Assembly (NCBI RefSeq): GCF_004365575.1
Contig: NZ_SOBG01000008.1
Coordinates: forward strand, 1 to 64,000
Reading direction: 5' to 3'
DNA length: 64,000 nucleotides
Origin: Hypnocyclicus thermotrophus
GTDB lineage: Bacteria > Fusobacteriota > Fusobacteriia > Fusobacteriales > Fusobacteriaceae
The translations under genes were made by a program, and so were the position numbers. The notes under the pieces are model-generated. The model had not been told where the DNA came from and did not search any database. It saw only the letters and a program-made list of their open reading frames with translations. Within the stretch, counting starts at the first letter, position 1, and each line of letters begins with the position of its first letter. Of this stretch, positions 31,811 through 41,381 are shown one piece after another.

Positions 31811-31987
31811 TTTAAGGAAAAATAAAAAATATAAAAGCGCCAGATCTTTAAATTATTTAAAGAAGACGAGGACTAGAGTTATCGAATTTTCGGCGGATGC
31901 TCTAGAGGTGGTCACAACCTAAAAAACATACAAAATCTAAAAGTGATTTTAGGTACAAATATGTTTTAGTGACTATTTTTCCTTAAA
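31811..31987 (+). repeat. 14-bp inverted repeat enclosing the glmS ribozyme
   Basis: Positions 31811-31824 (ending AAGGAAAAATA) are perfectly complementary to 31974-31987 (TATTTTTCCTTAAA). The helix would close around the whole ribozyme, with the self-cleavage site inside. Such a closing helix is not part of the core I know for this class. It is followed by A residues rather than U, so it is not an intrinsic terminator. Confidence 0.6.
31837..31976 (+). ncRNA. glmS ribozyme (glucosamine-6-phosphate-responsive)
   Basis: Self-cleaving riboswitch in the glmS leader. The 5' core GCGCCAG starts at 31837, so cleavage is expected between 31836 and 31837. A P2-like hairpin (ATCTTTAAAT/ATTTAAAGA) is followed by GACGAGG, the CTAGAG/CTCTAG stem enclosing ATCGAATTTTCGGCGGATG, and then the P3/P4 region with GGTCAC/GTGACT, AAAACATA/TATGTTTT and AATCTAAAA/TTTTAGGT. 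The order and conserved bases match the class. It reduces glmS mRNA when GlcN6P is high. Confidence 0.95.
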
Positions 31988-38420: not shown

Positions 38421-39497
38421 TTATAAATATTTTAATATAGCTTCTCCCATTTCTTTTGTCCCCAAAGAAACTTTTCCTTCACTATAAATATCTCCTGTTC
38501 TAAATCCTTCTTTTAATACTTTATTTACTGCATTTTCTATATCATCAGCAGCTTCATTCATTCCAAAACTATATCTAAGCATCATAGCTCCTGATAATAC
38601 TTGTGCTATTGGATTTGCTTTATTTTGATTTGCTATGTCTGGAGCTGAACCATGGATAGGTTCATACATTCCAAAATTATCATCTCTTAAACTTGCTGAT
38701 GCAAGCATTCCAATTGAACCTGTTATAATAGATGCCTCATCCGATAATATATCTCCAAACATATTTCCTGTAACAATTACATCAAATTGTTCTGGTGCTC
38801 TCACAAGTTGCATTGCAGCATTATCTACATACATATGATTAAGTTCAACTTCTGGATATTCTGGTGCTATTTCTAATATTGCTTCTCTCCATACTCTCGA
38901 TACCTCTAATACATTTGCTTTTTCTACAGACGTTAATTTCTTATTTCTTTTCATAGCTGCTTCAAATGCTACTTTCGCTATTCTTTTTACTTCTTTTTTA
39001 GAATACTGCATTACATCATATCCTACTAAATCTTCCCCTTCGCCTTTTCTTCCTTTTTCTCCAAAATAAATTCCCCCTGTAAGCTCTCTTACTACTAATA
39101 TATCTATTCCTTTATCAACAATAGAATTTTTTAATGGTGATGCATCTTTTAATTCCTCAAATACTTTAGCCGGTCTTAAGTTACAGAATAAATCTAATCC
39201 TTGTCTAAGTCCTAAAAGAGCTTTTTCAGGTCTTTTATTCCCAGGTAAAGTGTCCCACTTCCATCCACCAACAGCTCCTAAAAATACTGCATCTGATTTT
39301 TTACACTCTTCTAATGTCTTAGCTGGTAAAGGTTCACCAAATTTATCAATAGCACATCCACCTGCATCCATTTCTACCCAATTTATTTTTGTATCATATT
39401 TTTCTACTGCTTTATTTATAACTTCTATTCCAACTTTTGTTATTTCTGGTCCTATACCATCTCCTGGTATTGCTACTACCCTATATTCTTTTTTCAA
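38421..39497 (-). CDS. leuB: 3-isopropylmalate dehydrogenase
   Basis: NAD-dependent oxidative decarboxylase of leucine synthesis, 358 aa. Motifs include [11 protein letters not shown], the substrate arginines in [16 protein letters not shown] and [11 protein letters not shown], the conserved Lys-Asn-Val after [20 protein letters not shown] and the NAD-binding [15 protein letters not shown] start at 39497 is set by GAGGAGG 8 nt upstream. It lies 20 bp after leuA, without leuC or leuD between. Confidence 0.96.
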
Positions 39498-39517: not shown

Positions 39518-41029
<1,512 letters not shown>

Positions 41030-41119: not shown

Positions 41120-41183
41120 AAAAAAAACTAACTTCGCCAAAGTTAACATAAAAAAAGCTAACTTTAATCTAAAAGTTAGCTTT
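41120..41183 (-). terminator. leu operon attenuator (terminator and second hairpin)
   Basis: On the minus-strand RNA, AAAGCTAACTTT pairs with AAAGTTAGCTTT (12 bp, 6-nt loop; plus 41154-41165/41172-41183), followed by seven U. A second, shorter stem (41129-41134/41140-41145) is followed by eight U. The 5' arm of the main terminator is also complementary over 9 nt to AAGTTAGCT at 41221-41229, inside the leader peptide gene, giving a mutually exclusive antiterminator. Confidence 0.8.
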
Positions 41184-41199
41184 GATATACTATATAATA

Positions 41200-41292
41200 T
41201 TATTGTTTTACACAACTATTAGCTAACTTACTATGAAAATCATTTCGTTTTGATAAGAGTAATAAAGCTAACAGTAATAACAAAATTTTCAT
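41200..41292 (-). CDS. leuL: leu leader peptide (30 aa, leucine-rich)
   Basis: An ATG at 41292 behind a perfect AGGAGG (41301-41306) opens 30 codons starting MKILLLLLALLLLS. Nine of the first 13 codons are leucine (mixed TTG, TTA, CTG, CTC), with one more at codon 23. The stop lies 17 nt before the attenuator stem. The TTAGCT in the Leu run can pair with AGCTAA in codons 23-25, and that segment with the terminator arm. This gives the four-region logic of ribosome-mediated attenuation: Leu-tRNA shortage stalls the ribosome on the run and frees the antiterminator. Confidence 0.85.
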   Translation of the reverse strand: MKILLLLLALLLLSKRNDFHSKLANSCVKQ

Positions 41293-41352
41293 AATAAGAG
41301 CCTCCTTTTTTTAAAATATTGTACATATTTCTACATACAATTTATTGAATAA

Positions 41353-41381
41353 ATGATATCAATATATTTTTTATTTGTCAA
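41353..41381 (-). promoter_or_regulatory. leu operon promoter
   Basis: Consensus TTGACA (41376-41381), a 17-bp spacer and TATCAT (41353-41358) on the minus strand. The predicted start lies about 50 nt before the leader peptide ATG. Confidence 0.85.

Follow-up and report, generated by a model that had tools for sequence, protein, structure and literature searches.

A leucine-rich leader ORF and a probable ribosome-mediated attenuator upstream of leuAB in Hypnocyclicus thermotrophus

In enterobacteria, translated-leader attenuators are known for leu, ilv, his and trp, a trick familiar from E. coli. In the case of leuL, which precedes leuABCD, a short Leu-rich peptide is encoded in a leader RNA whose arms can pair as 1:2, 2:3 and 3:4, with the terminator located before leuA. 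The region upstream of leuAB in Hypnocyclicus thermotrophus described here has in common with leuL the short Leu-rich leader, the three pairings and the terminator before leuA. It differs in having no Rfam leader match, an antiterminator arm inside the ORF and a second terminator that shares arms with the first, as well as in coming from another phylum.

Attenuation by translated leaders was recognised first in Proteobacteria and Actinobacteria and later in some Firmicutes (PMC2965389, PMC5794164, PMC9413887), among them the his leaders (PMC2965389, PMC9413887). The ilvD gene of Staphylococcus aureus is preceded by a Leu/Ile-rich translated leader, for which a T-box had been considered first (PMC5794164). 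This attenuator shares with the present one the Leu-rich translated leader, the terminator and an AT-rich bacterial host; however, it is located before ilvD, and its proposed antiterminator sequesters the poly-U stretch, leaving the terminator stem intact, rather than forming a 2:3 stem (PMC5794164). The LEU element of Actinobacteria likewise comprises a Leu leader ORF in front of leuA, but there the classical parts are missing; it may fold as a pseudoknot, and mutations of its Leu codons did not fit classical attenuation (PMC1262725). In Clostridia, leuA T-boxes act on the same gene and also attenuate transcription in response to tRNA charging, whereas they sense the tRNA directly and without a translated leader; none is present at the fusobacterial site. 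A survey of 2008 listed no T-boxes in the genomes of Fusobacteria and Thermotogae then available (PMC2494555).

The analysed stretch of the H. thermotrophus genome, referred to as the window, comprises 64,000 nt. A region of 262 nt (41120-41381) carrying a leader ORF and hairpins precedes leuA and leuB, and promoter, leader ORF, hairpins and both genes are all located on the minus strand. The features are as follows.

41353-41381, minus: sigma-70-type promoter TTGACA-17-TATCAT, matching the consensus at 11 of 12 positions and carrying TG ahead of the -10 (-35 TTGACA 41381-41376, 17-nt spacer, -10 TATCAT 41358-41353)
41318-41341, minus: imperfect 24-bp palindrome ATTGTATGTAGAAATATGTACAAT between promoter and Shine-Dalgarno sequence, just downstream of the -10; from its sequence a possible operator
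41306-41301, minus: Shine-Dalgarno sequence AGGAGG of the leader ORF
41292-41200, minus: leader peptide ORF MKILLLLLALLLLSKRNDFHSKLANSCVKQ, 30 aa, nine Leu in codons 4-13
41266-41275, minus: arm 1, ACUGUUAGCU, within the Leu run (codons 6-9); pairs with 41224-41215 over 10 bp
41215-41229, minus: arm 2, AAGUUAGCUAAUAGU, within the ORF (codons 22-26); alternative partners are arm 1 (10 bp) and arm 3 (9 bp)
41172-41183, minus: arm 3, forming the 5' half of terminator 1; its stem with arm 4 has 12 pairs and -13.3 kcal/mol
41154-41165, minus: arm 4, 3' arm of terminator 1, identified by its stem with arm 3 and by the terminator scan
41150-41156, minus: U-tract of terminator 1, seven U, of which three also belong to the stem
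41139-41147, minus: arm 5, 5' half of the second hairpin and 9-bp complement of arm 4 (4:5, -7.4 kcal/mol; 5:6, -1.2 kcal/mol)
41120-41134, minus: arm 6 and second U-tract (eight U)
39518-41029, minus: leuA, 2-isopropylmalate synthase (NCBIfam equivalog matches NF002086.0 and TIGR00973.1, above cut-off)
38421-39497, minus: leuB, 3-isopropylmalate dehydrogenase, TTG start (TIGR00169.1, above cut-off)

The curated models thus identify an operon that makes the very amino acid specified by the leader codons. GGGGAG precedes the leuA ATG at 41029. A promoter-like sequence within the region (TTGTCA-18-TATAAT, 41075-41046) would start transcription inside the leuA Shine-Dalgarno region; with a weaker counterpart in the sister species, it was taken as a chance occurrence.

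The anatomy proposed in the first-pass annotation was largely recovered, with corrections to several details. The Leu-rich ORF of 30 aa behind AGGAGG is real and stands alone: among 50 small ORFs of the window preceded by a Shine-Dalgarno sequence, no other has at least seven Leu in 13 codons (1/50). Among its Leu codons are CTG and CTC, each of which accounts for ~1% of the Leu codons in the long ORFs of the window. The promoter, which had been called perfect, is present but near-perfect; that of the sister species reads TTGACA-17-TATTAT. The 1:2 pairing, given as TTAGCT with AGCTAA, exists but is longer than stated and joins ACUGUUAGCU to AGCUAAUAGU over 10 bp including one G-U, whereas the 9 bp given for 2:3 were found as described (AAGUUAGCU, codons 22-24, with AGCUAACUU). 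Terminator 1 (3:4) consists of a 12-pair stem (41183-41154) running into seven U; both numbers had been reported correctly, but as additive, so that the three U lying within the 12 pairs were counted twice. It is the sole terminator-like match in the 600 bp scanned, with 0.0 expected by shuffling. The second hairpin, announced as the weaker one, is likewise real (41147-41127, followed by U8), and weak at -1.2 kcal/mol.

Taken as a whole, these elements very probably make up a ribosome-mediated attenuator of leuAB transcription, specific for leucine and responsive to charged tRNA-Leu; the four-region logic proposed for the leader is well supported by the anatomy, by stalled-ribosome folding and by conservation in relatives. 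With ample leucine, the ribosome would pass the Leu codons and reach the stop codon. Arm 2 would then be covered or paired with arm 1, the 3:4 terminator would form, and RNA polymerase would stop near 41150, or else near 41120, where the second hairpin would provide a back-up. Under a shortage of charged tRNA-Leu, the ribosome is predicted to stall in codons 4-13 and to cover arm 1; arm 2, left free, could then pair with arm 3 ahead of the synthesis of arm 4, the terminator would fail to form, and leuAB would be transcribed. The positions fit the classical geometry, in which a ribosome on codons 4-13 would cover arm 1 and leave arm 2 free.

Folding calculations are consistent with this model. 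The leader folds with z = -3.0. Stalled states were represented by model ribosome footprints on a transcript cut before arm 4, and in these model folds upstream pairing of arm 3 had a mean probability of 0.75 for a ribosome on the Leu codons and 0.00 for one at the stop codon. The corresponding values for the sister species were 0.78 and 0.00. Shuffled sequences matched the stalled-state pairing of arm 3 in 5 of 200 cases for the window and in 4 of 200 for the sister species. By computation, a mutually exclusive 2:3 antiterminator is favoured by a stall on the control codons, and a 10-bp 1:2 protector is predicted as well. At equilibrium 3:4 (-13.3 kcal/mol) is stronger than 2:3 (-7.5 kcal/mol), and antitermination would therefore need co-transcriptional timing, as in known attenuators.

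Leu-rich leaders preceded by a Shine-Dalgarno sequence were detected immediately upstream of leuA in 12 genomes from five genera (g1, two; g14, five; g8, three; g13 and g6, one each), each with a terminator hairpin; two of the leaders (L085 and L088) were read from the sequence, and terminator 1 of L084 was recognised by eye. Between the window and the sister species, arms 1-4 are without substitution while the spacers vary. The leader peptide is nearly identical in these two; across genera the Leu run alone is kept and the remainder differs. The five g14 species show the same layout built on an unrelated stem, GCAGCT..AGCTGC: arms are again shared between two terminators, and the arm-4 sequence is repeated in the ORF after the Leu run. 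The comparison of leuA leaders called for at the outset was thus borne out for the Leu run, which recurs in five genera, but not for compensatory exchange: among the g14 terminators, five sequences too similar for such a test, no pair had changed on both sides, so that the support from g14 is architectural and not formal covariation. In model folds the antiterminator of g14 and g8 was not clearly better than in shuffled sequences, g8 being ambiguous, and none was found for the g13 and g6 leaders. Conservation of the pairing is accordingly clear in g1, architectural in g14 and weak in g8.

The second hairpin invites a refinement, not a negation, of the attenuator model: six interchangeable arms in sequence, with two terminators made from the same arms, would act as a tandem "domino" switch in which one stall flips both. 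Formation of 2:3 would free arm 4, which could pair with arm 5, block 5:6 and lock the open state; once 3:4 has formed, 5:6 would serve as a second stop. The energies in the window agree with such a switch, as the two alternative states are balanced (2:3 plus 4:5, -14.9 kcal/mol; 3:4 plus 5:6, -14.5 kcal/mol) and 4:5 (-7.4) by far outweighs 5:6 (-1.2 kcal/mol). A perfect 9-bp 4:5 pairing also occurs in the sister species, and the arm-sharing terminators of the five g14 species have 4:5 energies of -9 to -10.6. However, 4:5 does not exceed 5:6 in strength in the sister species or in g14, arm 5 emerges only once the polymerase is past terminator 1, shared arms would also arise by simple duplication of a terminator, and g8, g13 and g6 have one terminator each. 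We consider the tandem switch possible but unlikely. It is a testable one; if true, one stall near the start would flip both terminators, with 4:5 disarming the second. Control might instead be exerted mainly at the promoter, by a repressor binding the palindrome at 41318-41341, with the attenuator playing a minor part. The position of this 24-bp imperfect palindrome just after the -10 and its being largely kept in the sister species would suit an operator, but the genome contains no second perfect copy of the ATTGTATGTAGAAATATGTACAAT pattern. Imperfect matches numbered 24 genome-wide, barely more than the 16 of a reversed-pattern control, and yielded no convincing further sites of a regulon. 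As g14 also lacks a palindrome at the corresponding place, a dominant repressor seems improbable.

Very little speaks for the view that the ORF encodes a functional hydrophobic small membrane protein and that the hairpins act as a simple terminator that is read through at a constant level. The hydrophobic Leu-rich N-terminus and the near identity of the peptide in the sister species would fit; against it stand the retention of the Leu run alone across genera, the unsubstituted arms inside the ORF, and leaders of other operons that carry the cognate residue (Ile/Leu/Val for ilv, His for his, Trp for trp); we regard this explanation as very improbable. The reading as a degenerate T-box or amino-acid riboswitch is disfavoured to the point of being hardly credible. 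The expectation of a T-box was fair for Clostridia, as 10 of the 20 Clostridia-type leuA relatives scanned carry one within ~500 nt upstream of leuA. At the H. thermotrophus leader, however, Rfam scans at gathering thresholds and at E<=5 found no T-box (RF00230), Leu leader or other family, and the only T-box match of the genome is located elsewhere (L153:1181-1358, corresponding to G000:C1:27680-27857), upstream of a gene for a non-discriminating aspartate--tRNA(Asn) ligase, after which come genes resembling gatC and gatA; the whole-family T-box search was run with stricter filters, at which weak matches are lost. Elsewhere in the window, a glmS ribozyme was found at 31825-31978 (RF00234, 102 bits).

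The first-pass annotation had considered a translated leader notable because T-box control is the usual expectation in low-GC Gram-positive bacteria. This argument does not hold. LeuA is 95% identical to its nearest named record, which derives from a Fusobacteriales MAG, and among 98 genomes of the phylum the genus is otherwise represented only by the genome of this MAG. The LeuA neighbours and the genome kinship place the host in the Fusobacteriota, and a low-GC Gram-positive origin is rejected. Moreover, examples from Firmicutes were already known (PMC5794164, PMC2965389, PMC9413887).

In targeted stretches of the same genome, leaders with U-tract terminators were also found to precede ilv, his and trp genes. 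An ILV-rich leader, MILIISLPILLSFVIVLLLNKEANNNINKLSLFL, lies with its terminator before an ilvD-led ilv operon (L184:3495-3599, G000:C10), in which the genes after ilvD were named from order and first residues only. The his region begins with a His leader, MKINITIKLHHHRH (HHHRH), in front of hisG (L201:34 onward, G000:C3). Read by eye, pairing is possible between CATCATAGACA and TGTCTATGGTG and between GGTGG and the terminator's CCATC, so that the his leader looks like a complete attenuator in which the His codons would pair with arm 2 and arm 2 with the terminator. A Trp leader, MVTIFKSWWKNEYLESTKYIICSIISKNDTIY (WW), precedes a chorismate-binding, trpE-type gene (L231, G000:C2; start MVTIFKSWWKNEYLESTKY); here a 9-bp candidate antiterminator, again read by eye, would join CTAAGAACG to TGTTCTTAG of the terminator. 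WWW versions of the Trp leader were observed in several other genera. A search for Phe leaders before pheA-type genes gave no matches.

Across the phylum, an ILV-rich leader was located 60-700 nt upstream at 27 of 30 ilvD loci, compared to an expectation of 0.009 per locus taken from the remainder of the same sequences. Four leaders in one genome together with this phylum-wide ilv leader argue that Fusobacteriota appear to rely on ribosome stalling rather than on T-boxes for amino-acid synthesis. The kind of regulation is known; its broad use in Fusobacteriota, with four pathways (leu, ilv, his and trp) in one genome, seems to be undescribed. No report of translated-leader attenuation in the phylum was found in the openly available literature, a search that does not prove absence. 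The finding also points to small ORFs that are missed by length filters.

The ilvD leaders of Leptotrichiaceae (L156-L181) provide the best evidence for an antiterminator arm embedded in a leader ORF among the leaders of the phylum. Their ORFs share the motif LKVSxNDF, encoded by the near-invariant block GCCTTAAAAGTTTCT, which is conserved at third codon positions as well. This block can pair over up to 13 bp, often 11-13, with AACTTTTAAGGC at the terminator's 5' side; the first of these pairs is variously G-C, G-U or A-U. In 7 of 16 distinct cases the pairing beat all 200 mononucleotide shuffles, and about half of the cases were weak in an ungapped search. The LKVSxNDF/GCCTTAAAAGTTTCT block could seed an RNA family. 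In genus g6, besides the ilvD leader, another leader-like ORF, rich in ILV and containing an LKVTDNxFV block, was observed in the ilv-leu region (L198:299, minus strand; L193:7333, plus strand), possibly representing two attenuators for one pathway.
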